DNA from: Opitutales bacterium
GTDB lineage: Bacteria; Verrucomicrobiota; Verrucomicrobiia; Opitutales; Oceanipulchritudinaceae
Direction of reading: 5' to 3'
Length of the DNA stretch: 46,743 bases
NCBI GenBank assembly: GCA_020831585.1
Contig: JAFIGE010000025.1
Span: forward strand, 1-46,743
Of the stretch, positions 4,475-19,872 are shown piece after piece. Under the pieces are notes generated by a model. That model was not told the origin of the DNA and searched no databases. It saw nothing but the letters and a program-made list of their open reading frames with translations. The translations under genes were made by a program, and so were the position numbers. Numbering within the stretch: position 1 is the first letter of the stretch; each line of letters begins with the position of its first letter.

Positions 4475-4506
4475 CTCTTCCTGCGAAATGCGCATGGTTG
4501 TGAGCT

Positions 4507-7500
4507 TTACCATCCATACGTATAGTTGATGCGGAAAAAGCGGGGCTGCCCGACACTGAGAGTCTCCTCGTGCGACATCATTTCGCTGGCCCCGGGGCGC
4601 ATGGGGCCAAGGTCGGACCAGTTTTGCAGGTCATCTGAAACCTGCAACTGGTATTGGATACCCGGATACCCGAACCATTCCATGCGCAGGCCGCCGGGAA
4701 CCTGCGTCAGGCTCATGTTGTAGAACGGGGGGTGCGGGTCGAAGGGGGCGTCCGTATCATCAATCTGCAGGAGGAAGGTGTAGTAGGCCGGGCCTACCTC
4801 ATCCGTGGAGGCTTGCAGGCGGATCAGGAGATCTTCCGAGGTCCCGGCAGGCGGGGTGCCGACCAATTGCGCCATGCCGCCGCCGAGGTTTTCCAGCGTC
4901 AGCCAGGCGGGCAATGGATCGACCACATCCCAGGTGACCCCGTAACCATTCGGACAGGTCGCGGAAAGCATGTGACTGAACTCCCCGCCCGCTGGAACGA
5001 CGCCCGTGAAGGGTGCCGAGGTCACTTCGGGGAAAGCCTCGTGCGGGGCATACAGTTCCAGCGAGGGCATTTGCAGCCCACTTTGGTTCAACCAGGTGCC
5101 TTCGATGCGGCTGTAGACACCAAAACTGACCGCGTTGCCCAGCACATCGGCGGTGAGGACCGGATCGCCCCGTCCCGTAAACGGGTTATCCCAATCCAGG
5201 GCGCGCCAATTGAAGTTATTCAGAGCCCAACTCCGGCGCGCCGCCACGACACCGCCCCCCGTGATGCGTTGGATGACATTGGTGGACGTGATCGCCCACC
5301 GCGTTTCCCCGTCGACCTCGTATCCGATCAGAAACCCATTGACGTTTGATAAGTTGTTTAGATTCGCATAGAGGCCGTCACTGAAGACCATCGCGCCGCT
5401 CAGACTCCCGCGATCAAAGTTCTTCCAAACCTTGTGCATGTGAAAGTGATTGTCGCCGTTATGGCTGGGGACGACCCGCAACACGCCTGGCTCATCCAAA
5501 CCGGTGGTGTCGAGGTTGTTCTGCCCGCTGGCGGACCAGGTGAAGTTGGAGGCCCGTCCGGCTTGGTCAAAACCGCGCGTGTTCCACTGCGAAACCGTGT
5601 TCGTGGCGAAATCGTCCCAGATGAGCGTGGGACCCAGGCTCCCGGGCACCCGCACGGAGATGTCCACCGTGGTGGAATCCGTTCCGCCGCGGTCGTCGGT
5701 AACGGTGAGCTGGACCGTGTATTTGCCCGGTTCCGTGAAGATAAAGGAAACGACTGGCCCGCTGGCCGTGCTGCCTTCGCCGAAGCTCCAGTCATAGGCG
5801 GTGATCACCCCGTCGGGATCGCTGGAAAGATTGCCGTCGAAGAACACTTCGAGCGGTGCAAAACCGTCTGTGATGGAGGGTAGAAGAGCGGCCGTGGGGA
5901 GAATGTTCGGGGGCATCTCCTCGACCTCAAGGGTGAAGGCATGCGTTGTCTCCCGCACTCCATCGGAAGCCACCAGGGTCAGCGCATACGAACCTTCAGC
6001 TTCCGGGGCTGTCCCTGCAAACTGACCAAAGCCGTTGCCAAAATCATAGAAGTCCAACCACGCGGGCAAGTCCAGGACCGTGAGCTGAAGCAGCGAACTG
6101 TCGATACTGGAAACGGCCCGCACGGGGTGGTTGTAGTGACCGCCCACATACACGCTGGAGGGCGGCAAAACAGTGAAAACGGGTGCTTCGGAGGCGACGA
6201 CCGAGATGGCGAAGGATTGCCAGGACTGGGCTCCGGCGCTGTTGGTCGCGACCAGCGTAACCCAGTTCATCCCCGCATCCGCCTCGTCTGGAGTTCCTGA
6301 AAGGATGTGGACACCTCCGTTTTCCGACAAACTCAACCAACCCGGAGCCGATCCGGCAAACGTTACCGCCACCGGCAAATCCGCCGGATCATCCAGTGCG
6401 ATTGCATAGCTGTAGAGTTCATCGATAACGGCTGCGGTCGGGGGCACGGAAGTGAACACGGCAGGCTTGTCAGGAAGTGTTTCGCGATGGCTGACCAGTG
6501 TCAGGCTGCTGATCTCCGCCTGGCTCTCGGCCTGCCAGGATGCGGTCAAGCCAACGTGGGCCACGCCGATGGCGCGGGCATTTTCAAGAACCAGCGCCGA
6601 ACTCAATCCCGCGCCGACTCCGCCATTGAGATTGTCCAGATTCACGCTGCTCCAGGTGAAGTTGCCCATGTTCCAGGCCCCGGGCACGGGCGTGACGGCC
6701 GTCCAACCGCCCGAAGTAGTGTGTATCCCCTCGTTAGATACAGCCCACTGCAGGCCGCTGCCGTCGTCATAGCCCACGAGGGCGCGGACGATCGCGTGAT
6801 CGTTGCCGGGCCTGTGAATGCCAGTGGTCGAGAGCGTGGCATCGGTGATGTTTTCGCGAAACGGGAACGAATAATAGTGGGCCACCGATTGAGTCGAAAC
6901 TGCCTGCTGATGGAATCCGCGGGAACCGATGGTGCTCAATGTGGTGAGCCTTCTTCCACTATTCAGGTAGCGAAAGGTCGGCTTTCCGGCTGCGTTGGAG
7001 TCGGAGACGAAATTCCACTCAGCCGGGTAATCGATGAAAGGATCGTCCAGCAGAACACCGCCGACGCCCCCGTCATACACCGTCAGCACCCAGGACTGTT
7101 CCTTCGTGACCCCATTGGCCTCAACGAGCAGGGTCACCCGATACGTTCCGGAGGCGGTGGCTGCTCCCGCCAGCGTGGCAGAGCCATCGCCGTTATCGGT
7201 CAAGACCAAGCCGGCCGGTGCCCCGCTGACACTCACGAAGGTGCTGGCACTGCCGGTCGAAACCGTGGCGGTGTAGGAGAAGGGCCAATCCTTCACCGCA
7301 ATGGAGGGGGGGCTTGTCTCGAAACGGGGCAGGAGCGTGGGTGATCCACTGGTCACATATATCCGGGTTTGGCTTGTGTCCGATAGCCCCAGGCTGTCCG
7401 TCACGGTCAGGCTGATGTTGTAGGCCCCCTCGGGAAGGTTCAGCGATGCGGTCGCCTGGTGGGAAAGAATCCGGTCGGTATCCAAATCCCTCCAGGTCCA

Positions 7501-9288
7501 GGAGGTCAGGTAGCCCTCCAGTGAGAAGGAGCGGGAGCCGTCCAATACAACCGGGCTTGCCGGGTCGTTGACCTCGTCCGCATCAATGAGCGCGCGCACC
7601 TGCGCGTCCTCGCCCTGGACAAAGGCGAACCATCCGTTGGTTCCGTCATCCGGCCCCAGGCGACTGGACTGGACGGGGTTCACCAGGTGTACTCTGTTGA
7701 CCACGGGATTGGGATTGGGTCCGGTCCAGCCGCCCCAAACGAAGTTTGCCGTCTGTTGCGTATCAAGTGTGCGCACGGCGAGGGCGCGCCCCTGCCCGCC
7801 GGCCACCCGTGTGGAATAGAGGCGGGTGCGGAAATCCGGACTGTAAACCAGCAGATAGGCACCGCCGGTGTAGAATGGATCGTCATCCTGGAACGGGTCA
7901 AAGGCAACTTCGCCCGCCCGGGGAATGGAGAAATTGGGAAAAGTGTTATTCGGCAGGTAGAAACCGAAGAAGGAACGGCCCGTGATGTAGACACGGCCTG
8001 TTTCATCCGCATCCAAAGCACCCCCACGCATGTGGATGGTGTTGTCGGTGGTGCCGCTGCTGCTCCGCCGGTTGGTGAATCCAAGGGTGCGCAACCAGGT
8101 CACGGAGTCATCGTGCAGCTCATAGACGCTGACTGAGATCTTCGGCACCGTACTGGTGTTCGCAAAAAGATCGAAGGTGCCGTCGGTGATGGTCCAGGGG
8201 GCGCTGACACCCAGATCCTGACTACTATAGCGCAGAGGTGTGTTCCCCCCGTCCGGCTCCGAACCGATGTAGAGCTTGCCATCCTGCCCCACCGTGACCC
8301 GGTAGGAGCGCGTGTCGGCCATGTTGTTATTGAAGGTCTTGGGCATGCCGAGAAGGTATTGATACCAACCGGTCACGGTTCCCTCGGCGGCTTCCCTCGC
8401 ATCAATTTCTTCCTGGGTGTAGAGGTTGGAAGGGGCGGTGGAAAAGGGATAGTTGATCCAGCGCGGATTCGGGATGCGGGCATCCTTGTCGAGCCACACA
8501 TCTCTGCTCCAACCGTGCAGCCGCCACTTCATGGGCACGCCGGGTTGACCGTAGTTGAAAGGGACACCGGTGGTGAAGGGAACGTCCACGGGCGTGTCAA
8601 TGCGTCCATTGTAGCCGCGGCTGTAGGGACCGTTGTAGGTGAAAAAGTTATACCAGCCCGTGAAGATCAGCGTTTGTGTGCGGCTGTCCACGGCCACATC
8701 GAGCAGGTTGCCGCCCACGCCAAAGGAGGTCAGGGGGTCGCCATTGGGGGCGAAGAGGTGGACCGTTCCAGCCCCGGGATTGTTGTCGCGGGTATTGCCA
8801 TCCGTGACTACGACCGCGCAATGGCCATCGTCCCCCGCGTCCACCCGCCACACCATGCTCCCCGCCAAACGGGTCCACAGCACCTCATCCGCCGTGGGGT
8901 TCAGCTTCATCAAGCCAAAGGTGCCGGCGGCGACGTAAAGGTTGTCATACTGGTCGGAACTGAGGTCGTGCACCACCTCCGATAGATGCGTCACCGACAA
9001 AATGCTTCTTCCGTCGGCACTCAGCCGGACAATCGCCCCATTGCTCCCCAAGCCAATCGTGGTCGTCACCGGTGCCGCCGGTTGGGCAAAGGCCAGATTG
9101 GTCGCCAGCACAATTGTCCCATCCGATAGAATGACGGATCCCGCCACACGGGAACTGTTATCGGAACCCCCCAGATAGGAAGACGCGTGGATATCGAACT
9201 GCGCGCTGAGGCCGGTGGCGGCGGCAAGGAAACTCGTGAGGGCCAGAAGTAGGAGGTTGCGGGGGCTCGGGGAGAAACAGGTTTTCAT
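4507..9288 (-). CDS. Large secreted propeller / PKD / Ig adhesin-like protein
   Basis: Exported protein of 1593 residues. Signal peptide 1-30; a propeller-like N-terminal half (about 31-550) with repeated DGTIVLA, DNLYVA and GKLYIG strands; PKD domain 553-648; putative Ig (He_PIG-type) domains at 652-738, 942-1032, 1033-1124 and 1420-1512; a second PKD at 1130-1214 containing YDWSFGEG; and a C-terminal LQVSDDLQNW-type domain from about 1515. Residues 745-940 repeat the module also found at the C-terminus of the lyase (145-3102) and as the whole body of the PEP-CTERM protein at 13623. A more diverged copy spans about 1222-1415. The N-terminal half is paralogous to the protein at 36358-40029. 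No catalytic motif was seen. A role in surface binding or glycan capture is inferred from the domains. Confidence 0.8.
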   Translation of the reverse strand: MKTCFSPSPRNLLLLALTSFLAAATGLSAQFDIHASSYLGGSDNSSRVAGSVILSDGTIVLATNLAFAQPAAPVTTTIGLGSNGAIVRLSADGRSILSVTHLSEVVHDLSSDQYDNLYVAAGTFGLMKLNPTADEVLWTRLAGSMVWRVDAGDDGHCAVVVTDGNTRDNNPGAGTVHLFAPNGDPLTSFGVGGNLLDVAVDSRTQTLIFTGWYNFFTYNGPYSRGYNGRIDTPVDVPFTTGVPFNYGQPGVPMKWRLHGWSRDVWLDKDARIPNPRWINYPFSTAPSNLYTQEEIDAREAAEGTVTGWYQYLLGMPKTFNNNMADTRSYRVTVGQDGKLYIGSEPDGGNTPLRYSSQDLGVSAPWTITDGTFDLFANTSTVPKISVSVYELHDDSVTWLRTLGFTNRRSSSGTTDNTIHMRGGALDADETGRVYITGRSFFGFYLPNNTFPNFSIPRAGEVAFDPFQDDDPFYTGGAYLLVYSPDFRTRLYSTRVAGGQGRALAVRTLDTQQTANFVWGGWTGPNPNPVVNRVHLVNPVQSSRLGPDDGTNGWFAFVQGEDAQVRALIDADEVNDPASPVVLDGSRSFSLEGYLTSWTWRDLDTDRILSHQATASLNLPEGAYNISLTVTDSLGLSDTSQTRIYVTSGSPTLLPRFETSPPSIAVKDWPFSYTATVSTGSASTFVSVSGAPAGLVLTDNGDGSATLAGAATASGTYRVTLLVEANGVTKEQSWVLTVYDGGVGGVLLDDPFIDYPAEWNFVSDSNAAGKPTFRYLNSGRRLTTLSTIGSRGFHQQAVSTQSVAHYYSFPFRENITDATLSTTGIHRPGNDHAIVRALVGYDDGSGLQWAVSNEGIHTTSGGWTAVTPVPGAWNMGNFTWSSVNLDNLNGGVGAGLSSALVLENARAIGVAHVGLTASWQAESQAEISSLTLVSHRETLPDKPAVFTSVPPTAAVIDELYSYAIALDDPADLPVAVTFAGSAPGWLSLSENGGVHILSGTPDEADAGMNWVTLVATNSAGAQSWQSFAISVVASEAPVFTVLPPSSVYVGGHYNHPVRAVSSIDSSLLQLTVLDLPAWLDFYDFGNGFGQFAGTAPEAEGSYALTLVASDGVRETTHAFTLEVEEMPPNILPTAALLPSITDGFAPLEVFFDGNLSSDPDGVITAYDWSFGEGSTASGPVVSFIFTEPGKYTVQLTVTDDRGGTDSTTVDISVRVPGSLGPTLIWDDFATNTVSQWNTRGFDQAGRASNFTWSASGQNNLDTTGLDEPGVLRVVPSHNGDNHFHMHKVWKNFDRGSLSGAMVFSDGLYANLNNLSNVNGFLIGYEVDGETRWAITSTNVIQRITGGGVVAARRSWALNNFNWRALDWDNPFTGRGDPVLTADVLGNAVSFGVYSRIEGTWLNQSGLQMPSLELYAPHEAFPEVTSAPFTGVVPAGGEFSHMLSATCPNGYGVTWDVVDPLPAWLTLENLGGGMAQLVGTPPAGTSEDLLIRLQASTDEVGPAYYTFLLQIDDTDAPFDPHPPFYNMSLTQVPGGLRMEWFGYPGIQYQLQVSDDLQNWSDLGPMRPGASEMMSHEETLSVGQPRFFRINYTYGW

Positions 9289-9449
9289 TGTTGAGGGTAA
9301 TGGGTGGACGAAAAATCGCCTCCCCGTCCGTCGGCGCGGCGCTATTCAAGCCGCGCACCGCAGAGTCGGAGGAGGAAACAGGGTAGGAGATATTGTGCCT
9401 AAAATCATCCTCCCGGTCTACCCTGAATTGGGCTTTATATTTTGCTTTT

Positions 9450-9640
9450 TGCGCCAACGTGCTCGGCAGCAAGCTGCCTTCGCGGAAAGCGGCAGTCCCG
9501 TCCAAACGGGACCGCAGTTCAAAGACGGCTTGCACCGGCGGGGCGGAAGTCGTGCGGAGCACCTTGGACTGCGGCAAGCTCTTGCCGCTTTTTCCAGCCG
9601 CAGCCTGCTGCGGCGTTTTCGGCTGGCCGCAGGCCGGTGA
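9450..9640. repeat. Cluster of short perfect hairpins (family G)
   Basis: The stretch between 9289 and 9710 has no convincing gene. It holds successive palindromes: GGCAGCAAGCTGCC, GTCCCGTCCAAACGGGAC, GCGGCAAGCTCTTGCCGC (9571-9588) and GCCGCAGCCTGCTGCGGC (9598-9615). They look like remains of one or more REP-type elements. Open frames across them are by-products of the palindromes. Confidence 0.6.
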
Positions 9641-9710
9641 CTGACGGCCCAAATCCTTTGCCACGGGGGCTAGCGCCGACGCCTTCCGCATCGCCCCGAC
9701 CTGGCTTTGA

Positions 9711-9812
9711 TCACCCCCGGTATTCGAGCACCGTCAACCCGGGGATACGCCGGAATTCGAGCACATTTTGAAGGTCGATCAGGAAGGTCGTGTCGAGGGC
9801 GATGCGTTCCAT
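9711..9812 (-). pseudogene. VapC-type PIN toxin reduced to head plus tail
   Basis: A 33-codon frame reads MERIALDTTFLIDLQ, the usual start of a VapC-type PIN toxin with its first catalytic Asp, then directly NVLEFRRIPGLTVLEY, which resembles the usual VapC C-terminus. The roughly 100 residues between, including the other acidic catalytic residues, are missing, yet the frame and stop codon are kept. This is best read as an in-frame internal deletion. A possible antitoxin frame lies just upstream (9979-9779, ending PPADPWNAS...) but is not convincing. Confidence 0.55.
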
Positions 9813-10004
9813 GGATCAGCGGGCGGTTTGTCTTCCCTTTGCGCCGCTTCCAGGCGCTCCAGGACCTCGCCCGGCAAGGGCGTCCTGAGGGTGGGAGAGC
9901 TGGAGCCATCAAAGGCCGCCCGGCTGCGGGTTGATGGCCGACGACTCGTCGATGGGCGCACGGGGGATCTTGACACCACCGGGTGCTACCATTTTGCTAA
10001 CATC

Positions 10005-10247
10005 ATGAAAGCATTACACATCCGCGGGCTCGATGAAGCTGTGGTGGAAGGCTTGAAGCGGCGGGCGCGGCGGCATCGGCGATCCCTGCAAAAGGAAGTG
10101 GAGGTTGTCCTGACGGAGGCCGCGCAAATGGTCCCGGAGGATACCGCAGCCCCCGTCAGCCTGAAATCCCTGCTGCGGACAGTGTCGACGGGGCGGAGTG
10201 CCGATTATTGGTCACGGGACGAAATCTACGGGGATGACGGTCGATAA
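10005..10247 (+). CDS. FitA-type ribbon-helix-helix antitoxin
   Basis: 80 residues. The N-terminus MKALHIRGLDEAVVEGLKRR followed by ARRHRRSLQKEVEVVL is the FitA/VapB ribbon-helix-helix DNA-binding fold. The C-terminal part (SLKSLLRT... DYWSRDEIYGDD) is the acidic tail expected to wrap the toxin. It probably binds and neutralises the PIN toxin encoded by the next gene and represses the shared promoter. The ATG at 10005 was chosen because the RHH begins exactly there; the open frame extends far upstream without homology. It overlaps the toxin gene by 14 bases. Confidence 0.85.
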   Translation: MKALHIRGLDEAVVEGLKRRARRHRRSLQKEVEVVLTEAAQMVPEDTAAPVSLKSLLRTVSTGRSADYWSRDEIYGDDGR

Positions 10248-10668
10248 CCGATACTTTGTGGATACCAACGTCCTCCTTTCGGCGACGGACAAGGATCGGG
10301 CACATCACGCGGAGGCCCTTGCCTTTCTGGATGAGGGAATGGCGGGACGTTTGAGTCTGTATGTGAACGGTCAGGTTCTGCGCGAATACCTTGTCGTGGC
10401 GACCCGGCCCCAAGCGGCGAACGGGTTGGAAATGGAGACCGCCGATGCCCTCGCAAACCTTCGCCATTTTCGCAAATGCCTTGCCCTCTTGGCGGAGGAC
10501 GGGGAAACCGCGTCCTGCCTCGCCGCTCTCGTGGACCAGCATGCCCTGGTGGGGAAGCGCATCCATGATGCGAACATCGTGGCCACCATGCGCCAGACCG
10601 GTCTGCGCCGTCTGAAAACCTTCAATCCCGATGATTTCCGTCCCTTTGCGCACCTCCTCCTCGAGTAA
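10234..10668 (+). CDS. VapC-type PIN-domain ribonuclease toxin
   Basis: 144 residues. PIN acidic residues are visible: Asp10 in YFVDTNVLL, Glu51 in VLREYL and Asp112 in RIHDANIVATM. VapC toxins cut tRNA or rRNA using Mg2+; the target here cannot be read from sequence. The start at ATG 10234 overlaps the end of the antitoxin, as is normal for co-translated pairs. An earlier in-frame start at 10198 would add residues unlike the family. The pair seems intact, in contrast to the broken modules on both sides. Confidence 0.85.
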   Translation: MTVDNRYFVDTNVLLSATDKDRAHHAEALAFLDEGMAGRLSLYVNGQVLREYLVVATRPQAANGLEMETADALANLRHFRKCLALLAEDGETASCLAALVDQHALVGKRIHDANIVATMRQTGLRRLKTFNPDDFRPFAHLLLE

Positions 10669-11008
10669 CTGCCCGGCCAGTGCCCCGCCCCCAAAAACGT
10701 GACACAACATTCTGTCTGTGCTCCCGCCTCAACCGGGGCGCAGACAATATCACCACGGCTCAACAAGCAACCGCCGCCACCCACCGTAACCGGGCTGGTT
10801 TCCGCTCCCTGCCATCTTGGCCTCCAAAGCCCGGAGAGGCGGCGGTGGAAGCCCGCAGGTCGACGGCGGAGATCGCCCAACATTCCGCAACGTCCCACCA
10901 GCCGCCGAGCGGGCTTGTAAGAACCCGCGCGCCGTCAAACCCCTCAAGGGCCAATACTTTCCAGCTTGAAACATATTGGAAGATATACATTTTTACTTAT
11001 TTACCCTT
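10669..11008. other. No recognisable gene
   Basis: Several short overlapping open frames on both strands, none resembling a known protein. The last 60 bases become AT-rich, and the run before 11009 could hold the promoter of the former AbiE pair. Confidence 0.5.
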
Positions 11009-11098
11009 ATGAAATTCACCGATCTTCGCATTCTCATTCGAAAGACCGAGTATTTTGATTTTGCGACTGTGCTTCAACTGAGCGGGGAGGAATTATGA
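11009..11098 (+). pseudogene. AbiEi-like antitoxin, N-terminal stub
   Basis: A 29-codon frame reading MKFTDLRILIRKTEYFDFAT then VLQLSGEEL and a stop. This resembles the first residues of AbiEi-family antitoxin/regulators, where a winged-helix domain normally follows. The stop overlaps the ATG of the AbiEii fragment (ATGA), so the stub keeps the normal coupling while the body of the gene is gone. The assignment rests mainly on the neighbouring AbiEii sequence. Confidence 0.5.
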
Positions 11099-11304
11099 GA
11101 GAGGAAGCATTGGAACTGGCCCGCCGAGCGGGGGATCCGTCCGCCGCGCTCAACCGCCTGCGGGAATTCGTCCAAGCCTTGGTTTTGCGCTCCTTGCACG
11201 ACGGTCAGGCTTTTCTGAACCTCGCCTTCGTCGGCGGCACGGCCCTGCGTTTTCTCTATGATTCGCGGCCGGTGAACCCAGGTTGCCCCAAGCATTCGTC
11301 GTAA
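11095..11304 (+). pseudogene. AbiEii/AbiGii nucleotidyltransferase toxin, truncated
   Basis: The start MREEALELARRAGDPSAALN and the later LAFVGGTALRFLYD are characteristic of AbiEii-type nucleotidyltransferase toxins; GGTAL is the nucleotidyltransferase motif. Family similarity stops after about 60 residues, and the remaining ~200 residues with the catalytic Asp pair are absent. The end (NPGCPKHSS) comes from unrelated sequence. With the stub before it, this is a dead type IV (AbiE) toxin-antitoxin or phage-defence module. Confidence 0.75.
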
Positions 11305-11411
11305 AGAAATACCGCAACCCCCGGGGGAGGTGCGGGCTTCTTTCCCGTGCGCAAAACGCTGAAGACGAGGTGTCACACCGTACGCTTCAACCACGCGCCG
11401 CAAGCCAAATT

Positions 11412-11476
11412 GGCGCAAAAACCAAAATTTTTCGCCCACTGGAGGGTAGATTTCCACAGTCGTTCCTGTGTATGCT
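11412..11476 (+). promoter_or_regulatory. Conserved PEP-CTERM promoter block, copy 1
   Basis: Begins with an imperfect dyad, GGCGCAAAAACC... TTTTTCGCC, then GGAGGGTAGATT (TAGATT at 11447-11452), exactly 18 bases, and TATGCT (11471-11476). The same block with identical 18-base spacing precedes the genes at 12504 and 13623. It reads as a -35/-10 promoter with an upstream regulator site. Confidence 0.7.
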
Positions 11477-11502
11477 GACCACCCACTGATACACATCCAA
11501 AA

Positions 11503-12327
11503 CTGATCTGCTTAACCCCCGCCGCCGTCCTGCTCGGTCTCGCGCCGTTGGGTGCCGCGATTATTGTTGTGGAAGAGGATTTTACGGGATACGCCAACAA
11601 CACGCAATTGGATGGTACTGCGGCTCAAGGATCGGGATTGACCGGGGACTGGTCTGTCGCAGGCGCATCCGAAGGAGTGCGGTCCTTCACGGGTACCATC
11701 TCCTATTCCGCTTTTGATGCCGTCGGCACGGTGTCGGGAGGTCACGCTAGGCCGGGGAATCATTGGCAGTCACCCACCCTTAGTGGCGATATGGCTACAT
11801 CGGTTTCCGAAGACGTGTTTGTTCAATATCTATTCAGAATCCCGTCGTTGCCGACCGATACCAGCAACACAGACATCGGCATCCGCATGAACATCGGAAG
11901 CAGCGGTTTGGGCTTCTACATCCCCGGTACCACCGCTGGAAGCAACGGGGAAGGCAATATCTTCGTCGGCGGCGGTTGGGGAGGAGCGAACTCCGCGAAT
12001 TTCACGTTTTCCACCAACACCGCTTATATGTTACTCGGCAAACTGGAGCACGACGGCAACAATTATACCAAGGCATCCCTTTGGCTGAATCCCGTAGGTT
12101 CCGAGTATGAGGACATCACCGGCTCCGCCGCCTCGGTAACGGGGATCGATATTTCCGGCATGGCTCTGTCCTCGCTCTCCGAGATTTCCTTCTCATGGAA
12201 CGATCGGCGAGCCGGTTCCGGTTCTCCGGAACTGGGAAATGTCACCGTCATCCCCGAGCCGCGCACCTACGCCGCGGTTTTTGGTTTGATGGCCCTTGGA
12301 TTGATCCTCTGGCGCCGTCGCCGATAA
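11503..12327 (+). CDS. PEP-CTERM secreted protein lacking a normal start codon
   Basis: About 274 residues if begun at CTG 11503. A hydrophobic signal peptide (LICLTPAAVLLGLAPLGAA) is present in frame, but no ATG, GTG or TTG lies before it; the nearest TTG (11548) falls at its end, and an in-frame TGA sits at 11476. The body has short glycine-rich beta strands (GGGWGG, GIRMNIGSSGLGFYI) suggesting a concanavalin-like jelly roll. It ends with a full PEP-CTERM tail (VIPEPRTYAAVFGLMALG..., RRRR) nearly identical to the next two genes. Either an unusual start codon is used, or a CACTGAT-type repeat at 11483-11508 has overwritten the start and silenced the gene. The start given is a placeholder. 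Confidence 0.6.
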   Translation: MICLTPAAVLLGLAPLGAAIIVVEEDFTGYANNTQLDGTAAQGSGLTGDWSVAGASEGVRSFTGTISYSAFDAVGTVSGGHARPGNHWQSPTLSGDMATSVSEDVFVQYLFRIPSLPTDTSNTDIGIRMNIGSSGLGFYIPGTTAGSNGEGNIFVGGGWGGANSANFTFSTNTAYMLLGKLEHDGNNYTKASLWLNPVGSEYEDITGSAASVTGIDISGMALSSLSEISFSWNDRRAGSGSPELGNVTVIPEPRTYAAVFGLMALGLILWRRRR

Positions 12328-12355
12328 CCCATCCAACTGTTTCGCAATCCCCTTC

Positions 12356-12388
12356 AATGCCCGCCCTTTTTTGGGGTGGGCATTTTAT
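12356..12388 (+). terminator. Rho-independent terminator, cassette 1
   Basis: Stem TGCCCGCCC / GGGTGGGCA around a T-rich loop, followed by TTTTATT. Homologous terminators follow the next two PEP-CTERM genes. Confidence 0.8.
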
Positions 12389-12409
12389 TAAACCCTAAAA
12401 ACCCCTTTT

Positions 12410-12474
12410 GGCGCAAAAACCAAAATATTCCGCCCATCAGAGGGTAGATTCTTGGGGTGTTTCCGGTGTAAACT
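12410..12474 (+). promoter_or_regulatory. Conserved PEP-CTERM promoter block, copy 2
   Basis: GGCGCAAAAACCAAAATATT then CGCCC and GAGGGTAGATT (TAGATT 12445-12450), an 18-base spacer, and TAAACT (12469-12474). The ATG at 12504 follows about 30 bases later. Confidence 0.75.
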
Positions 12475-12503
12475 AATCTTCCTTCAATCTACCACATGAA
12501 ATT

Positions 12504-13337
12504 ATGAAACAAAACCATACCATGAATGATTCACTGGTTCGCTCTCCCTGCTTGATCGCCATCTTCTGCCTGGCCCTCCCCTTCGGTTTACCCATCAACC
12601 TTCAAGGCGCCATCCTTCCTTCATCCTGGGACTTCGGTAGCGATAAAGACGACATTTCGGATTTTTCTCAGTTCAATAACTGGAGCTTGGAAACCAATTC
12701 GGCTCGAATCAGTATGAACACAGGCCCGGATTTCCAGACCTTTGCAAACGTTGTTTCCTTCTCGGATCTCGGGGGAACGACTCCCAACAACTTTCAAGCC
12801 AACCTCACCTTCACCCTCACAGATGCAAACATTGGGGACTTTGCCCGTTTTTCTTTGATCGCATTATCGGATGGAGCATCTTTTGACGAAGCAAATGACA
12901 CAGGGATCACCGCCGAATTTCTCAAAAATGCAAATCCTGCGGTTAATGCCTACGATATTGCTTTGCGAACGGGTTTGAACGACACCCGGATTGCCGGGGC
13001 CAGCGCTATTTTTCCCGGCATTGGCATTGATGATGATCTTACGGGCTACATCTTTACCATGCAACTCACCGGATCCTATGTCGGACCCGACCTCATTCTA
13101 AATCTTTCGGTTTTTGATAACAACAATAACTCGCAGACCCTTTCCAACATCACGGTAACGGCCGCAGATTACAGCGGAACGTATTTTGGCATGGGGACTA
13201 GAATGACTTCCAGTGGCAATAATGAGCTTCTCACCATCGACTTCAATAACTTCAGTGTCATCCCCGAACCCAGCACCTACGCCGCGGTTTTTGGTTTGAT
13301 GGCCCTTGGGATGCTCCTCTGGCGCCGTCGCCAATAA
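12504..13337 (+). CDS. PEP-CTERM secreted protein
   Basis: 277 residues. N-terminal signal peptide with hydrophobic core CLIAIFCLALPFGL; a second Met at codon 7 is also a possible start. The body is acidic, rich in Asn, Asp and Ser, and predicted to be mostly beta strands, with no catalytic motif recognised. The C-terminus VIPEPSTYAAVFGLMALGML plus WRRRQ is a canonical exosortase signal. The promoter block at 12410 and the terminator at 13375 make this a free-standing transcription unit. The interior shares no clear similarity with the flanking cassettes, although the first promoter part and the last ~26 codons do. Confidence 0.85.
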   Translation: MKQNHTMNDSLVRSPCLIAIFCLALPFGLPINLQGAILPSSWDFGSDKDDISDFSQFNNWSLETNSARISMNTGPDFQTFANVVSFSDLGGTTPNNFQANLTFTLTDANIGDFARFSLIALSDGASFDEANDTGITAEFLKNANPAVNAYDIALRTGLNDTRIAGASAIFPGIGIDDDLTGYIFTMQLTGSYVGPDLILNLSVFDNNNNSQTLSNITVTAADYSGTYFGMGTRMTSSGNNELLTIDFNNFSVIPEPSTYAAVFGLMALGMLLWRRRQ

Positions 13338-13374
13338 AACATCCACCGGTTTCCCAATCCCTCAAATCCCTCTG

Positions 13375-13413
13375 AATGCCCGCCCTCTTTTGGGGTGGGC
13401 ATTCTTTATTTTT
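13375..13413 (+). terminator. Rho-independent terminator, cassette 2
   Basis: AATGCCCGCCC / GGGGTGGGCATT stem followed by CTTTATTTTT. The ~65 bases from the stop codon through the stem are nearly identical to those after the gene ending at 14336. Confidence 0.85.
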
Positions 13414-13510
13414 AATCCCAGCAATCTCCCCCCCCTCCACGGCAACAGGCAAACCGAAGGCATAACCGGAGAGGGCGTAGCCATGTCCGTTTCACATTGG
13501 GCGAGGGTTT

Positions 13511-13575
13511 GGCGCAAAATCCAAAAATTTCTGCCCGCTGGAGGGTAGATGGTTGGGGCCTTTTCGGCATATACT
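13511..13575 (+). promoter_or_regulatory. Conserved PEP-CTERM promoter block, copy 3
   Basis: GGCGCAAAATCCAAAAATTT then CTGCCC and GGAGGGTAGAT (TAGATG 13546-13551), an 18-base spacer, and TATACT (13570-13575). The ATG at 13623 follows 47 bases later. Confidence 0.75.
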
Positions 13576-13622
13576 CAAATCTGAATTCACTTTCCTTCTA
13601 ACATCAAGACTACCCAGAGAAC

Positions 13623-14336
13623 ATGAGAAAATCCTCCCCTCTTCAATTGATGACCGCAGCTATTCTGCTTCCCTTCGCTTCGTTGGGGGCCTCGATTGTC
13701 CTGATCGATGAAACCTTCTCCACCAACACGGTGTCGAATTGGACCGTTGCATCGGCCTCTACCCTCACCGACGCGGGTTCCGTGCAACACATTTCTGCGG
13801 GAAGTCAGTTTGACTACGGGCCCCATGATGGGGTTATGCGCTGGCGTCCGAACCACCTCGGAACCGCGTCTGATCAAGCAACCCTGATTTACCAAATCTC
13901 CGGGGTCACTGAAAATGCCAGCGGCTTCACATTTTCGACGACGGGCATCCACGCGCAAAACAACAATGTGGCCATTCGCCTGGCCATCCAGTTTGTTGAT
14001 AACTCTGTGACCCAATGGGCGGTGAGCAATCAAAGTATTCGCACAAGCACGGGCACCTCCGCGCCTGTTCCGGGAAGCTGGGCACTCTCCTCCCTGACGT
14101 TCTCCTCCTTGAATATCGGCAACCTTAACGCCGGTCCGGGATCTGCCCTCGACACGGCAACCGTCTTGGAGAATGTCACGGGCATCGGGGTCTACAGCCG
14201 ATTCGTTAACCAGCAATGGCAGGCGGACCGGGCGACTCAAATCGACTCGTTCACGGTCATCCCCGAGCCCAGGACCTACGCAGCCATTTTCGGTCTGATG
14301 GCCCTCGGGTTGATCCTCTACCGCCGTCGCCGATAA
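13623..14336 (+). CDS. PEP-CTERM protein consisting of the WAVSN module
   Basis: 237 residues. Signal peptide about 1-23 (LLPFASLGAS). Residues 24-210 form one copy of the module also found in the two large proteins at 145 and 4507. Shared landmarks are STTGIH, QWAVSN, VPGSW followed by TFSS, LNAGPGSALD, TVLENVTGIGV and QWQA. It ends VIPEPRTYAAIFGLMALGLI plus YRRRR, the exosortase signal. Having the module alone in a surface-sorted protein defines its borders and suggests an independently folding, probably ligand-binding beta domain. Promoter block at 13511; terminator at 14374. Confidence 0.85.
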   Translation: MRKSSPLQLMTAAILLPFASLGASIVLIDETFSTNTVSNWTVASASTLTDAGSVQHISAGSQFDYGPHDGVMRWRPNHLGTASDQATLIYQISGVTENASGFTFSTTGIHAQNNNVAIRLAIQFVDNSVTQWAVSNQSIRTSTGTSAPVPGSWALSSLTFSSLNIGNLNAGPGSALDTATVLENVTGIGVYSRFVNQQWQADRATQIDSFTVIPEPRTYAAIFGLMALGLILYRRRR

Positions 14337-14373
14337 AACATCCACCGGTTTCCCAATCCCTCAAATCCCTCTG

Positions 14374-14410
14374 AATGCCCGCCCTCTTTTGGGTGGGCAT
14401 TCTCGTTTTC
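14374..14410 (+). terminator. Rho-independent terminator, cassette 3
   Basis: AATGCCCGCCC / GGGTGGGCATT stem, then TCTCGTTTT. It separates the PEP-CTERM cassette from the glycan operon that starts 16 bases later. Confidence 0.8.
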
Positions 14411-14426
14411 CATTGTAGTTTACGCT

Positions 14427-15596
14427 ATGGCCCAACCACTTCCCTCTCTTTATCCAAACCTCTACCGCTACTCCCGGCCGGCCCTTTTCCGTGCTGCCGC
14501 AGCGGCGGCCGACCCGAAAAGCGCCGACCACGCGGAACTCGCGCGGTCCCTCGCCCACCTGCGCGAAGAGGCGAAAAGGGCGGCGGGTTTTGCCCCGGTC
14601 TCGGTCACCGACAAGGCCGCGCCGCCTCCCTCCGGCGACCCGAAGGACTACCAGTCGATCGCCACCTATGTCTGGCCCGATCCCAAGAGCGGGGACGGGC
14701 TGCCCTGGATCGAAATCGACGGCAAACGGAATCCCGAATGCGACAACTACGATCAGGAGCCCCTGCACCGCCTCTCGAACGCCGTCACCACCCTCGCCCT
14801 CTCCGCCTTCCTCTTCCGCAACCAGGAGCACGGACGCCACGCCGCCCGCCTCCTCCACCACTGGTACCTCGATCCGGCGACGGGCATGAACCCGAACCTG
14901 AACTTCGGCCAGCACGTCCCCGGTCAGTGCCACGGCCGCCCCTGGGGCATCATCGAGTCGGCCCTCTTCATTCCGCCCATGCTCGAATCGGCCGAACTCC
15001 TGGAGTGGACCGGCGATCTGCCGAAGGTCGATGCCGACGCCCTCCGCGGGTTTCTCGCCCGCCTCCTCGACTGGCTGCAAAGCCATCCCTACCCCCTCTA
15101 CATCGCCACCTTTCACAACAACCACGGCGTCTATTTCGACCAACTGGTCGCGCGCATCGCCCTCTACGTGGGCCAGCCCGCCGTGGCCCGCGCGGTCCTC
15201 GCACGGGTCCCCCACAAAATCCGCGAGCAGATCGAACCCGACGGTTCCCAGCCCCGCGAACTGCGCCGGGCCAACGCGCTCATCTACACAACCATGAACC
15301 TCCGCGGCTTCCTGCAGCTCGCCGACATGTCCGCCCGCCTCGGAATCGACCTTCACGCCTACCGCACCCCCGAGGGCAGCTCAATTCGCGGCGGGGTCGA
15401 TTTTCTGCGCGATCTCGCCACCGGTGAACGCGACGTCAGCTACAAGGAACATGCCAACTGGCAGCCGAATGCAGCCGCGCTCCTGGCCATGGCCGGCTAC
15501 AAGTTTGGCGACCCGGCCCTCCTCAAAACCGCCGCCACCATTGATCCCGACCTTCCCGCTCACTGCGTCCACCTCACCCACTCGGCCACGCCATGA
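14427..15596 (+). CDS. Cytoplasmic alginate-lyase-fold polysaccharide lyase
   Basis: 389 residues. The sequence fits the (alpha/alpha) barrel alginate lyase family (PF05426). FHNNHGVYFDQ holds the catalytic Asn232-His233, and PRELRRANALIY holds Arg280 and Tyr287, the same seven-residue Arg-Tyr spacing as in A1-III alginate lyase. These enzymes cleave uronic-acid polymers by beta-elimination; alginate, glucuronan and related substrates are known in the family, so the substrate is open. No signal peptide is visible, so it should act in the cytoplasm on imported oligomers. The gene overlaps the next by 4 bases (ATGA), indicating translational coupling with the GH28-like enzyme. Confidence 0.8.
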   Translation: MAQPLPSLYPNLYRYSRPALFRAAAAAADPKSADHAELARSLAHLREEAKRAAGFAPVSVTDKAAPPPSGDPKDYQSIATYVWPDPKSGDGLPWIEIDGKRNPECDNYDQEPLHRLSNAVTTLALSAFLFRNQEHGRHAARLLHHWYLDPATGMNPNLNFGQHVPGQCHGRPWGIIESALFIPPMLESAELLEWTGDLPKVDADALRGFLARLLDWLQSHPYPLYIATFHNNHGVYFDQLVARIALYVGQPAVARAVLARVPHKIREQIEPDGSQPRELRRANALIYTTMNLRGFLQLADMSARLGIDLHAYRTPEGSSIRGGVDFLRDLATGERDVSYKEHANWQPNAAALLAMAGYKFGDPALLKTAATIDPDLPAHCVHLTHSATP

Positions 15597-16912
15597 CCGC
15601 TTTGACTCCCCCTGAAACCCACGACATCCGCGCCTTCGGGGCCTTGCCCGACGGACACCGCGTCAACACCACCGAGATCCAGGCGGCCATCGATGCCTGC
15701 GCGGAGGCTGGCGGGGGCACCGTCCTCATCGCCGGCGGCGTCTTTCTCACCGGCACCCTTTTCCTCAAGAGCCGCGTTCACCTGCGCGTCGCCTCCGGGG
15801 CGGTCCTGCGGGGCAGCCCCGACTTTCGCGATTACGCCGAGGGCTGCGGCAAAAACATGTACCGCGGCGAACCGGAAATGGACCGCTGCCTCCTCTTCGC
15901 CCGCGACGCCGAACACATCACGTTTTCCGGCGGCGGCATGATCGACGGCAATGGGGCCGCTTTCCCCAATGCCGACGATCCGGGGCGCAACCGCCCCATG
16001 CTCCTCCGCCTCATCGACTGCCGCGATCTCGCCCTCCGCAACCTCATCCTGCGCGACCCCGCCGGTTGGACGTCCGCCTGGCTCTACTGCCGCCACATCA
16101 CCGTCGACGGCATCCGCATCCACAGCCGGGTAAACGACAACGGCGACGGCCTCGACTTCGACGGTTGCGAGGACGTGCGCGTGGCCAACAGTTCCTTCGA
16201 TACGAGCGACGACTGCATCTGCCTGCAAACCTCCCGTCCGGATCGCCCCTGCCGCGACATCGTCGTCACCAACTGCACCTTTTGCAGCAAATGGGCCGGC
16301 CTGCGCATCGGCCTCCTCTCGCGCGGCGACTTCGATGGCGTCTGTGTATCCAACTGCACCTTTCGCGACATCGGCGACGCCGGACTCAAGATCCAGGTCT
16401 GCGAGGGCGCGGACATGCGCAACATGGCTTTCTCGAATCTCGTCATGCGGCGCGTTCCCCGTCCGGTCTTCATGACCCTCGGGCGTCAGCGCTGCTGCGT
16501 GGACGCGCCGGAGGGGCTGCCCCCGATGGGCCGGTTGCGGCAAATGCGCTTTGAAAACCTCCTCATCGACAACACCGTCGGCGGTGCCGACAGCCACCTC
16601 GTCATCACAGGCGTTCCCGGCGGCCTCATCGAAGACGTTTCCTTCTCCGGCATCCGCCTGTGGAGCGCGGGCGGGGTTGCGGAGAACGCCGTGCAAGCGG
16701 ACGCTATCCCCGAACTGATCCCGGAAAACCTCGGCGGACACTGGCCCGAGTATTCCTGCTTCAAGCAGGTCCTCCCGGCGAGCGGACTCTACGCCCGGCA
16801 CATCCGCAACCTCAGCCTGCGCGACCTCGACCTCCGCACCGAGGCACCCGACGCCCGCGCCCCCATCGTGCTCGACGACGTCACTTCAACTCAGGAGGAG
16901 GCCCGGCCATGA
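15593..16912 (+). CDS. GH28-like right-handed beta-helix glycosidase
   Basis: 439 residues. DIRAFGALPDGHRVNTTEIQ followed by AAIDAC is the usual start of GH28 polygalacturonase-type proteins, followed by a beta helix. The canonical NTD motif appears as NDNGDGLD (181-188) and the DD motif as SDDCI (Asp206-Asp207). Where GHG is expected the sequence reads KWAGLRIG, so the His is absent, and RIK appears as LKIQ. The Asp residues for acid/base chemistry remain. It is probably a glycosidase of a GH28 subgroup acting on uronic acid or related sugars. No signal peptide. Overlapping with the lyase upstream and preceding the sulfatase, it fits a pathway that trims sulfated uronic-acid oligosaccharides. 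Confidence 0.8.
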   Translation: MTALTPPETHDIRAFGALPDGHRVNTTEIQAAIDACAEAGGGTVLIAGGVFLTGTLFLKSRVHLRVASGAVLRGSPDFRDYAEGCGKNMYRGEPEMDRCLLFARDAEHITFSGGGMIDGNGAAFPNADDPGRNRPMLLRLIDCRDLALRNLILRDPAGWTSAWLYCRHITVDGIRIHSRVNDNGDGLDFDGCEDVRVANSSFDTSDDCICLQTSRPDRPCRDIVVTNCTFCSKWAGLRIGLLSRGDFDGVCVSNCTFRDIGDAGLKIQVCEGADMRNMAFSNLVMRRVPRPVFMTLGRQRCCVDAPEGLPPMGRLRQMRFENLLIDNTVGGADSHLVITGVPGGLIEDVSFSGIRLWSAGGVAENAVQADAIPELIPENLGGHWPEYSCFKQVLPASGLYARHIRNLSLRDLDLRTEAPDARAPIVLDDVTSTQEEARP

Positions 16913-16920
16913 ACCCGGAA

Positions 16921-17170
16921 GGGGCTTACGCATCCTGCGCGGGGCAACGCCTTCACGCTGGAAGCGTGAGCCTCCTCAGCCGGAAGGGGCGCACGCATCC
17001 TGCGTGCAGCAAAGGCTTTCACGCTGGAAGCGTGAGCCCCCTCAGCCGGAAGGGGCGCACGCATCCTGCGCGGGGCAACGCCTTCACGCTGGAAGCGTGA
17101 GCCCCCTCAGCCGGAAGGGGCGCACGCATCTTGCGTGCGGCAATGCTTTCACGCTGGAAGCGTGAGCCCC
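16921..17170. repeat. Four tandem family B palindromes
   Basis: Four copies of the GGGGC...GCCCC double hairpin start at 16921, 16986, 17052 and 17117, a period of 65-66 bases, joined by CTCAGCCGGAA. Two copies have a second-arm change (CTGCGCGGGG instead of CTGCGTGCAG) that breaks the first hairpin. The array fills the gap between the GH28-like gene and the sulfatase. There are no unique spacers, so it is not CRISPR. Confidence 0.9.
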
Positions 17171-17217
17171 CTCGTTCCTGCCGATCTCCCGCACTCGATT
17201 CTCCATGCGCCCACGCC

Positions 17218-18582
17218 ATGAAAACGAAGCCCAACATCCTCATCATCCAGACCGACGACCAGCGATTCGACACCCTCTCCGCCCTGGGTAACAACGAAAT
17301 CGAAACGCCCAACCTCGACCGCCTCGTGCGCGGGGGCACCGCTTTCACCCACGCCCACAACCTCGGTGCCGACCACGTCGCCATCTGCATCCCCAGCCGG
17401 GCCATGATGCTCACCGGGCGCACCCTTTTCTCCCTCGAAGACCGGGGCGAGCGCATTCCCCCCGAACACACCGCCCTCCCCGAATGGTTCCGTGCCCGCG
17501 GCTACACCACCGCCCACATCGGTAAATGGCACCAGGACCGCGCCGCCCATGCCCGCTGTTTTTCCACCGGGGCCCGCATCTTCGGTTTCAAGGAAAAGGA
17601 CGGGTGGTATGAGGCCTGCAACGGGCACTGGCACATCCCCGTGCACGACTATGATCCGCAGGGTCGCTACGATCCCAACGGCGGCTTCCACGATCCACCC
17701 CTCGCGCCCTTCACCGCCCCCTTCGAAACCTGCAAGGAAGGCGGACGCCACTCGGCCGAGGTCTTCACCGATGCGGCGGTGGACTTTCTCCGCGACTACC
17801 CGGCCTCCAGCGAAGGCCGCACGGGCAAACCCTTCCTCCTCTACCTCGCCCACATCGCTCCCCACGATCCCCGGCAGTATCCCGCCCGCTTCCGCGAGCG
17901 CTACAACGCCGGCACCGTCACCCTCCCGCCGAACTTCGCCATCGAGCATCCCTTCGACAACGGCGAACTGCTCGTGCGCGATGAACTCCTCGAAGCCCAC
18001 CCGCGCCAACCGGAACGCATTCGCCAGCACCTCGCCGACTACTACGCCCTCATCGCCTATGTCGACGAACAGGTCGGCCGTGTCCTCGACGCCCTCGACG
18101 AAAGCGGGCAGGCCGACAACACCCTCGTCGTCTTCTTCGCCGACCACGGCCTCGCCGTCGGCCAACACGGCCTCATGGGCAAGCAGAACCTCTACGACCA
18201 CAGCCTCCGCGTCCCCCTGATCTTCCGCGGCCCCGGCGTGCCGGAAAATCAAAGAGCCGCCACCCTCTGCGCCCTCGCCGATGTCTTCCCCACCCTCTGC
18301 GAACTCGCCGGAGAGGATACGCCCGCAACCGTCGAAGGCCACAGCCTCGTTCCCGCCTTGCGCGACCCAGCCATGTCCATCCGTGACGTCCTCCACTTAG
18401 CCTACAAAGACGTGCAACGCGCCGTGCGCCGGGGCCGGTTCAAACGCATCGATTACCACGTCTCGGGCGTGCATACCACGCAGCTTTTCGATCTCGAACA
18501 GGACCCCCACGAAACCCGCAACCTCGCCGACGATCCCGCCCACCGCGAAACCTTGGACCGTCTGGGCCTCTTCCTGCCCTGA
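17218..18582 (+). CDS. Type I (formylglycine) sulfatase
   Basis: 454 residues. Starts KPNILIIQTDDQRFDTL, with the metal-binding Asp13-Asp14. CIPSRAMMLTGR at residues 57-68 is the C-x-P-S-R signature whose Cys becomes formylglycine. FFADHGLAVGQHGL and the late FDLEQDPHETRNLADDP are also typical of the family (S1). It removes sulfate esters from carbohydrates. There is no signal peptide, matching the two enzymes upstream. The ATG at 17218 was chosen because family similarity begins there; the open frame before it runs through repeat DNA. The last residues (GLFLP) and the stop codon lie within a 200-base repeat unit, so the natural C-terminus appears to have been replaced. An activating enzyme (FGE or anSME) is not in the window. 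Confidence 0.9.
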   Translation: MKTKPNILIIQTDDQRFDTLSALGNNEIETPNLDRLVRGGTAFTHAHNLGADHVAICIPSRAMMLTGRTLFSLEDRGERIPPEHTALPEWFRARGYTTAHIGKWHQDRAAHARCFSTGARIFGFKEKDGWYEACNGHWHIPVHDYDPQGRYDPNGGFHDPPLAPFTAPFETCKEGGRHSAEVFTDAAVDFLRDYPASSEGRTGKPFLLYLAHIAPHDPRQYPARFRERYNAGTVTLPPNFAIEHPFDNGELLVRDELLEAHPRQPERIRQHLADYYALIAYVDEQVGRVLDALDESGQADNTLVVFFADHGLAVGQHGLMGKQNLYDHSLRVPLIFRGPGVPENQRAATLCALADVFPTLCELAGEDTPATVEGHSLVPALRDPAMSIRDVLHLAYKDVQRAVRRGRFKRIDYHVSGVHTTQLFDLEQDPHETRNLADDPAHRETLDRLGLFLP

Positions 18583-18960
18583 GCGGGCCGAAGGGGTGTC
18601 TCCAGCGACCTGTCCGCCGATGTGCTTTACAGGGGATTTTTCACCACGGAGGCACGGAGACACGGAGGAAGCAGGGAAGGCTCAGCTGTGCGCCCTTGGT
18701 GCCTCCCTCCGTGCCTCCGTGTCTCCAGCGGAAGCGGGTGGTAAAACCCAACAGAGCCCGAGCCTCTTCCTGCCCTGAGCGGGCCGAAGGGGTGTCTCCA
18801 GCGACCTGTCCGCCGATGTGCTTTACAGGGGATTTTTCACCACGGAGGCACGGAGACACGGAGGAAGCAGGGAAGGCTCAGCTGTGCGCCCTTGGTGCCT
18901 CCCTCCGTGCCTCTGTGTCTCCAGCGCAGCGGGTGGTAAAACCCAGCCGAGCCGGAGCCA
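18570..18960. repeat. Family E ~200-bp repeats, two copies
   Basis: Each unit reads CTGCCCTGAGCGGGCCGAAG, then CAGCGACCTGTCCGCCGATG, then CACCACGGAGGCACGGAGAC, and ends with the inverse, CCTCCGTGCCTCCGTGTCTC, plus GGTGGTAAAACCCA. The inner part is a large imperfect palindrome. Two more full copies and a partial one lie on the far side of the GxxExxY gene. The first copy provides the end of the sulfatase reading frame. Confidence 0.9.
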
Positions 18961-18982
18961 CCCACGGAGGACTCAGCGACAC

Positions 18983-19366
18983 CTAAAGGACGAGTCGTTT
19001 GATTCCATTCTTCAATACAGGAACATTGAAATTTATCAACAATCCGACACGGCACTGTGTAAGCCGCATATAAGTCAGCAACTGAGCCTCGAAAATCGGG
19101 GCAAGATCCCGGACGACCTTTAACTCCACGACCACATTTTTCCCGACAATGAGATCCAGGCGAAAGTCTTCATCCAAAACAACGCCTTTGTAATTCAACA
19201 ACAGTTTTAACTGTCGCTGGAAAGGAATGGCTCTCTGCTCAAGCTCTACGGCCAAGCTCTTTTCGTAAACGCTTTCAACCAATCCCGGCCCCCAGTAGCG
19301 GTGCACCTCAATCGCCGCACCGATGATTTTCTTCGTCAGCTCCTCCTCAATCAGTGAACCTGCCAT
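18983..19366 (-). CDS. GxxExxY family protein
   Basis: 127 residues. The name motif is present as GPGLVESVYE. DFRLDLIVGKNVVVELKVV has the D...ExK pattern of a PD-(D/E)xK nuclease fold, and the C-terminal LLTYMRLTQCRVGLLINFNV plus RLVL is typical of PF13366. Function is unknown; a nuclease role is inferred from the fold. The gene is framed on both sides by family E repeats, which suggests that gene and repeats travel or amplify together. Length is normal for the family. Confidence 0.9.
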   Translation of the reverse strand: MAGSLIEEELTKKIIGAAIEVHRYWGPGLVESVYEKSLAVELEQRAIPFQRQLKLLLNYKGVVLDEDFRLDLIVGKNVVVELKVVRDLAPIFEAQLLTYMRLTQCRVGLLINFNVPVLKNGIKRLVL

Positions 19367-19424
19367 ATCGAACAGCGTTTTGTTTTTTTCATGAAAGACA
19401 AGTCTCCCTCCGAGCCACAGCCTG

Positions 19425-19872
19425 CCCTGAGCGGGCCGAAGGGGTGTCTCCAGCGACCTGTCCGCCGATGTGCTTTACAGGGGATTTTTCACCACGGAGG
19501 CACGGAGACACGGAGGAAGCAGCGAAGGCTCAGCGGTGCGCCCCTGGTGCCTCCCTCCGTGCCTCCGTGTCTCCAGCGCAAGCGGGTGGTAAAACCCAAC
19601 CGAGCCCGAGCCACAGCCTGCCCTGAGCGGGCCGAAGGGGTGTCTCCAGCGACCTGTCCGCCGATGTGCTTTACAGGGGATTTTTCACCACGGAGGCACG
19701 GAGACACGGAGGAAGCAGCGAAGGCTCAGCGGTGCGCCCCTGGTGCCTCCCTCCGTGCCTCCGTGTCTCCAGCGGAAGCGGGTGGTAAAACCCAACCGAG
19801 CCGGAGCCACAGCCTGCCCTGAGCGGGCCGAAAGGGTGTCTCCAGCGACCTGTCCGCCAATGTGCTCTACAG
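19425..19872. repeat. Family E ~200-bp repeats, two full copies and a partial
   Basis: Full units begin near 19425 and 19617. A third starts near 19813 and breaks off at 19870, after the TGTCCGCCAATGTGCTCTACAG equivalent. They differ from the left-hand pair by only a few bases. The reading frames inside are palindrome artefacts. From 19873 to 20076 nothing recognisable is present. Confidence 0.85.

Follow-up and report, generated by a model that had tools for sequence, protein, structure and literature searches.

A conserved promoter-like block in an Opitutales polysaccharide-degradation locus and an XylR-like candidate for its regulator

Contig JAFIGE010000025.1 of an Opitutales bacterium (assembly GCA_020831585.1) carries three PEP-CTERM genes, predicted exosortase cargo, each preceded by a copy of the same promoter-like block. 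This raised the question of whether the block serves PEP-CTERM genes generally, as the original prediction had proposed, and of what might regulate it. The contig was analysed over its full 46,743 nt (the window), together with the 5.28 Mb genome to which it belongs. With a probability of about 0.62, we read the block as a promoter of sigma-70 type that depends on an activator, an XylR-like protein, and serves a single polysaccharide-degradation regulon; the binding, activating role and sugar ligand of this protein we infer from sequence.

The three copies lie exactly where they had been placed, all on the + strand, at 11412-11476 (-10 hexamer TATGCT), 12410-12474 (TAAACT) and 13511-13575 (TATACT); in the first, the half-site GGCGCAAAAACCAAAA is followed by a second half, GCCC...GGGTAGAT. 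A strict block pattern matched these three copies only in the whole genome and its reversed control matched nothing, while a 26-base part, with up to three mismatches allowed, gave four matches in the window against 0.02 expected from shuffles. Two more copies, both on the - strand, had been missed by the original prediction. A relaxed pattern search yielded copy 4 at 9391-9455, which has CACAAT instead of TAnnnT at the usual place, and a profile model yielded copy 5 at 40036-40099 (-10 TATCCT; E 1.7e-11). The relative of the gene behind copy 4 in a related genome, G010, also carries the block. Plasmid records searched for the block gave chance matches only (E about 3).

Profile models were built from 10 sites (R1, sequence only) and from 13 sites (R2), and the block was found at 22 sites in five genomes. 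The window's own genome (G000) holds six, of which five are in the window and the sixth is on contig C170; seven are divided among three relatives from a single genus (G010 with three, G009 and G008 with two apiece); and Verrucomicrobia bacterium BM_Day0_Bin.15 (G372), a member of another family, holds nine, six of them on one contig. At E <= 0.001, a scan with R2 of 372 genomes from the order found 13 sites, spread over four genomes; these are the sites on which the model was trained, and the stricter filters of that scan lose weak matches. The same model, built without G372 sequence, finds the nine G372 sites at E <= 8.8e-4, and G372 is the only one of 11 genomes of its family with the block. 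As a guess from sample names, the family of the window may be the one from soda lakes in PMC13274419. A pattern lacking the -10 returned nine stretches from a collection of 84,980 species genomes, namely one each from G009, G010 and G008, three from G372, and three judged to be chance by their sequence and lone occurrence (L138 from Sulfurovum, L140 from Bacteroidia and L144 from Prosthecobacter). Weak model matches were left out, in the own genome on C34 (E 0.015), C179, C132, C52 and C70, and elsewhere in G002, G004 and G012 as well as in G372 (C85, C8 and one more on C218, at E 0.16 to 1.4). At 21 of the 22 sites an open reading frame (ORF) starts on the same strand 49-233 bases after the site start; the remaining one, G009b, runs into a contig edge.

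The genes behind the sites point to the use of polysaccharides. PEP-CTERM genes follow nine of the 22 sites, and 13 stand before other, truncated or unclassifiable genes, among them those for 1593- and 1606-amino-acid (aa) proteins with Ig/PKD domains, a 1223-aa secreted protein and a GH29 fucosidase. One G009 site lies directly upstream of the start of a GH28-like gene whose N-terminus resembles that of the window's GH28 family gene (15593-16912, +). A G372 site precedes a relative of the window's alginate-lyase-family protein (PF05426), and another site precedes a 694-aa gene, behind which comes a sulfatase-like gene (35% identical over 182 aa to the window's PF00884 sulfatase, 17131-18582, +). 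Window positions 145-18582 are largely syntenic with positions 3568-20250 of contig C87 in G010, the main genes being 60-94% identical. PEP-CTERM genes 1 (11503-12327, +) and 2 (12504-13337, +) find only short matches in that region (26 and 29 aa), from which it follows that the enzymes change more slowly than the PEP-CTERM set. Judged by its sequence context, the block marks one polysaccharide-degradation regulon.

In the 19 sites that could be aligned the consensus is approximately TGnCGCRnAWAnCAAAA, 6 bases, GCCC, 6 bases, GGGTAGAY, 18 or 19 bases and TAnnnT. Of the 20 sites that could be scored, 16 have the hexamer TAnnnT 18 or 19 bases after GGGTAGAY, among them all six G372 sites that were found with the pattern lacking the -10. 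The order of parts given by the original prediction was borne out, as were a promoter-like block and a dedicated regulator as the likeliest reading; its other details fared less well. The gap between GAGGGTAGAT and the TAnnCT hexamer is 19 bases rather than exactly 18, so that a pattern with an 18-base gap matched nothing. Copies 1 and 2 have the dyad GGCG...CGCC and copy 3 does not; because the arms of the dyad are complementary in just 5 of the 19 aligned sites, a palindromic operator was rejected. The proposal that GAGGGTAGAT is a -35 box does not agree with the -35 consensus; an activator half-site lying over the -35 fits better. In positions 9200-15000 of the window two sigma-70-like pairs were found against 2.4 expected by chance. 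Neither ends at the proposed -10 of blocks 1-4 (a weak pair at 13491-13520 ends inside block 3), which argues for a poor -35 with GGGTAGAY occupying its place. The downstream half-site thus lies over or adjoins a poor -35 with the -10 at the usual distance, a geometry that fits an AraC-type activator site. The first half, GCGC-N6-CAAAAT, presumably resembles AraC-family half-sites such as the mar/sox box, and its GC(G/C)CA start recurs, weakly, 21 bp further on. The -24 GG and -12 GC of a sigma-54 element are 10 bases apart. A sigma-54 element was rejected for the block, in which this distance is 8 and GC occurs in only 4 of 19 sites.

A plausible regulator is encoded in G010 by a 412-aa ORF 680 bp from the syntenic cluster. 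In one chain it combines a LacI-type sensor (PF13377, Peripla_BP_3) with a C-terminal AraC helix-turn-helix (HTH; PF12833, HTH_18), the architecture of XylR, and it aligns with Escherichia coli XylR over nearly its whole length (PDB 4fe7, E 3e-21). The own-genome ortholog, G000:C131:7784-9013, is 85% identical and lies 178 bp from the end of its contig, so it may sit just left of the window. The G009 ortholog (82% identical) is 119 bp from a contig end, and that of G372 (59%) shares a contig with six of that genome's nine sites. Every other protein of the 372 genomes that matches the candidate at E <= 1e-40 has 30-42% identity to it. The segments SRRTLDRKFS and KQDTLSTxFR, which we take to lie where AraC-type recognition helices are, do not vary among the four orthologs, and none of the 15 other XylR-like proteins in the comparison has both. 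Among the 372 genomes the spread of the regulator nests within that of the block, all three genomes that have the regulator having the block as well (hypergeometric 5e-7, a value that takes no account of relatedness and depends on an identity limit set once the list had been viewed). Linked to the cluster and found in four of the five block genomes, this XylR-like protein is, on sequence evidence, the best candidate for the regulator of the block.

On this reading, the cytoplasmic XylR-like protein (G000:C131:7784-9013) would bind two tandem half-sites, first TGnCGCAAAAAnCAAAAT and then, 21 bp on, GCCCA...GGGTAGAY. From the second half-site, over the non-consensus -35, it would bring RNA polymerase to the -10 TAnnnT. 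In the presence of the sugar, lyases, glycoside hydrolases and sulfatases would be made together with surface-sorted PEP-CTERM proteins, which would probably bind the same glycan as the enzymes degrade. The enzymes of the locus suggest a ligand other than D-xylose.

Several points weigh against this assignment. Three of the four genomes with the regulator belong to two genera of one family, so the co-occurrence is not phylogenetically independent. TAnnnT is missing at 18 or 19 bases from 4 of the 20 sites (copy 4, its G010 counterpart, one in G009 and one in G008), and the 21-bp direct repeat in the block is weak (0.079, as compared with 0.113 at lag 29, over fewer columns, and 0.061 at lag 19). 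Between G010 and G372 the HTH (57/88) is only somewhat better kept than the sensor (157/280), and another XylR-like gene lies near one G372 site, on C253. Moreover, no block precedes the regulator gene itself or the divergent PEP-CTERM gene in G009, and G008 has two sites and no ortholog (best match 32%; genome 93% complete).

The last two of these points also speak for a different regulator, be it an AraC/XylR paralog, a LacI-type protein or an alternative sigma factor, with promoter and regulon unchanged. The own genome offers ample choice for this: HTH_18 has 52 matches there (51 above cut-off), and the candidate has 34 at E <= 1e-10. Against a different regulator it counts that the candidate is linked to the cluster in two families and that its spread nests within that of the block. 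We regard a different regulator as unlikely, although it is the most serious of the alternatives. The AraC gene within the window, at 40302-41261, was considered for this role and rejected, because a search of the family's 16 other genomes gave nothing at E <= 1e-20.

Instead, a single PEP-CTERM gene could have been duplicated in tandem together with its flanks, the three clustered copies being leftovers devoid of any regulatory role, and genes 1-3 do have their 3' ends and terminators in common (repeat D4). The block is kept, however, where the gene bodies have diverged; copies 4 and 5 stand on the other strand ahead of unrelated genes; and the fixed register extends across species and into one other family. 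Duplication is thus refuted as a full explanation and very improbable as such, although the PEP-CTERM units may nonetheless owe their number to it. Less probable again is that the block forms a structured RNA leader or encodes a small reading frame upstream of the genes. Copies 1-4 are open through the conserved part in a frame that in the first copies reads LAQKPK..A..RVD, but the G372 copies BM2 and BM3 stop in this frame after six codons. Moreover, Rfam has no match in the window, L168 or L049, the consensus fold has four pairs and no compensatory change, and the -10 lies downstream of the conserved part.

Finally, that the block is a general PEP-CTERM promoter, the signature of a PEP-CTERM regulon in the original prediction, is scarcely credible despite the nine sites before such genes, since it also stands ahead of GH28, GH29, lyase and other genes and, in a matrix scan with a 20-bit threshold, only 3 of 86 own-genome PEP-CTERM upstream regions scored above it (53-61 bits; next best 7.2). 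That scan covered all but one of the 87 PEP-CTERM matches at E <= 1, of which 86 are above the family cut-off. Its result argues for one polysaccharide-degradation regulon over PEP-CTERM genes at large. No genome-wide PEP-CTERM box was found either, as a de novo motif search of 82 upstream regions gave C-rich repeats only and short-word counts in the PEP-CTERM upstream regions of the own genome gave no single word common to them.

A wider pairing of PEP-CTERM genes with AraC/XylR-type regulator genes was found, and we consider it a more interesting lead than the block itself. Within 500 bp of an AraC-family gene lie 23 of the 87 PEP-CTERM genes (on C70, C71, C72, C75, C106, C126, C130, C132, C143, C180, C255 and other contigs), against 2.6 expected from uniform placement, the only baseline used, with gene ends estimated stop to stop (Poisson 1.4e-14). 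These 23 pairs involve 22 regulators, and 16 are divergent, six tandem and one convergent, where one in four would be expected to be divergent (9e-6). When 19 XylR-like loci from 14 genomes were fetched by similarity to the regulator, 11 had an adjoining PEP-CTERM ORF (L175-L182, L186, L189 and L190), 10 of them divergent by the listed coordinates; six pattern matches without a PEP-CTERM-like tail had been set aside by eye (L180, L185, L188 twice, L190 and L192). The other eight have no PEP-CTERM neighbour, and these include the candidate regulator in G000, G010 and G372. Such pairs recur in other families, with many different regulators and not via the block of the window. No report linking PEP-CTERM genes with AraC/XylR-type regulators was among the literature matches listed.

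The upstream regions were also scanned for self-repeats, in 82 cases, four of the 86 retrieved being too short. Among lags of 10-44 bp, 21 bp stood out most (mean 9.39 against 8.81). Five regions, for example on C255 and C130, reached at least 13/17 at this lag, where 0.2 were expected and other lags gave two at most; one of the five ends 2 bases ahead of the ATG. On the other side of the balance, the AraC-paired regions were not significantly higher in this score (22 vs 60, P 0.13), and in 14 regions from other genomes lag 21 had the highest mean, but by a negligible margin, none reaching 12/17. It may be envisaged that exosortase cargo in Opitutales and neighbouring Verrucomicrobiota is as a rule under the local control of XylR-like one-component sugar sensors. 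Many of the PEP-CTERM genes would then lie in divergent cassettes, each with its own XylR paralog and tandem 21-bp operator; dozens of such cassettes would dress the surface with the binding protein that fits the sensed sugar, and the block of the window would be one such operator set over a whole degradation locus. We hold the odds for and against this broader proposal to be about even.

Several known systems come close to the present case. In Gram-positives, regulators of the TIGR04094 type adjoin YSIRK surface-protein genes. By its name this family shares with our case the regulation of sorted surface-protein genes, but the candidate matches its HTH only, at 38 bits against a cut-off of 200, and is not a member. 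The likeness to E. coli XylR (PDB 4fe7, 4fe4), whose structure was reportedly described by Ni et al. in 2013, lies in the protein; the regulon here comprises polysaccharide lyases, hydrolases and PEP-CTERM proteins. At PmtlE of Pseudomonas fluorescens (PMC4514859), the AraC/XylS-type activator MtlR is associated with a direct repeat upstream of the -35, its two 15-bp blocks lying 22 bp apart; here the regulator is of another subtype, genes and sequence are different, and the second half lies over the -35. In Proteobacteria, Haft et al. (2006; PMC1569441) link PEP-CTERM promoters with PrsK/PrsR and sigma-54, state that among the species discussed only Proteobacteria share the motifs, and leave other regulators and motifs still to be found. 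The present case resembles that system in a conserved upstream site common to PEP-CTERM genes and in the matching of site and regulator across genomes; it differs in that the block lacks the -24 GG/-12 GC, the candidate is a one-component XylR-like protein, and a single locus, enzymes included, is concerned.

A possible role for the PEP-CTERM proteins is suggested by gene 3 (13623-14336, +). A domain like that of its product occurs at the end of the alginate-lyase-family protein at 145-3117 (38% identity) and twice inside the 1593-aa protein at 4507-9288 (34% and 27%). The AlphaFold model of this domain (mean pLDDT 74.8) finds its closest structural match in a complex-I assembly factor (Z 12.5, 4.3 Å over 176 residues), followed by meprin and by carbohydrate-binding modules (CBMs), namely CBM11 (Z 10.6, 4.1 Å over 159), a hyaluronan-binding module (Z 10.2, 3.6 Å over 144) and CBM22 (Z 9.8, 3.3 Å over 139). 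Foldseek TM-scores were low, and a sequence search of the gene 3 family against solved structures gave nothing significant. The predicted fold is CBM-like, a likeness that does not establish function.

As promoters common with degrading enzymes and one CBM-like predicted fold coincide, PEP-CTERM proteins, whose roles are mostly unclear, may be tied to polysaccharide use. The regulation of PEP-CTERM cargo outside Proteobacteria was named as open in 2006 (PMC1569441), and the present analysis offers for one group a concrete proposal of promoter element, regulon, named candidate regulator gene and ligand class. It suggests how surface proteins could be matched to the available sugar, and the pairing of PEP-CTERM with XylR-like genes may allow that sugar to be guessed from neighbouring enzymes.

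Within the locus, the products of genes 1-3 score 22.0, 25.6 and 21.6 bits with TIGR02595 (cut-off 16 bits), placing all three in the PEP-CTERM family; an NCBIfam scan at E <= 0.001 listed only gene 2 of the three. Gene 1 has no ATG, GTG or TTG ahead of its signal peptide (11476-11560), and a G010 gene with a similar signal peptide starts with ATG; a CTG start at 11503 or a decaying gene is possible. Terminator-like hairpins follow gene 2 (13374-13404, +), gene 3 (14373-14402) and, by reading, gene 1. Beyond gene 3, a second alginate-lyase-family gene (PF05426) occupies 14427-15596 (+). Downstream of copy 4, the gene for the 1593-aa secreted Ig/PKD protein (4507-9288, -) is followed by a fourth PEP-CTERM gene (3478-4416, -; 18.3 bits), which has no block of its own and, from strand and spacing, probably belongs to the copy-4 operon, with the alginate-lyase-family gene (PF05426) at 145-3117 (-) as its probable end. 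Copy 5 precedes the gene for the 1223-aa secreted protein (36358-40029, -), which has no NCBIfam family match; neither this protein nor the long secreted protein behind copy 4 has a PEP-CTERM. Within 40029-40041 (-), the -10 of copy 5 ends 6 bases ahead of the ATG at 40029, so the mRNA of this gene is possibly leaderless.

Elsewhere in the window, positions 24130-28737 (+) encode an MmeI-type restriction-modification protein that contains an IS200/Y1-transposase-like domain, and numerous REP-like palindromes in this gene are read in frame as linkers of the form EAASSR...KRQDAAST. Gene tails of SDR, sulfatase and metallophosphoesterase type are duplicated (23520-23667/33080-33227, 18382-18568/23701-23887 and 33383-33518/43252-43387), and repeats of 170 bases (in tandem) and of 300 bases (four copies) are also present (34496-34835; 18558-19901). 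The region with these duplicated tails and repeats is heavily rearranged.

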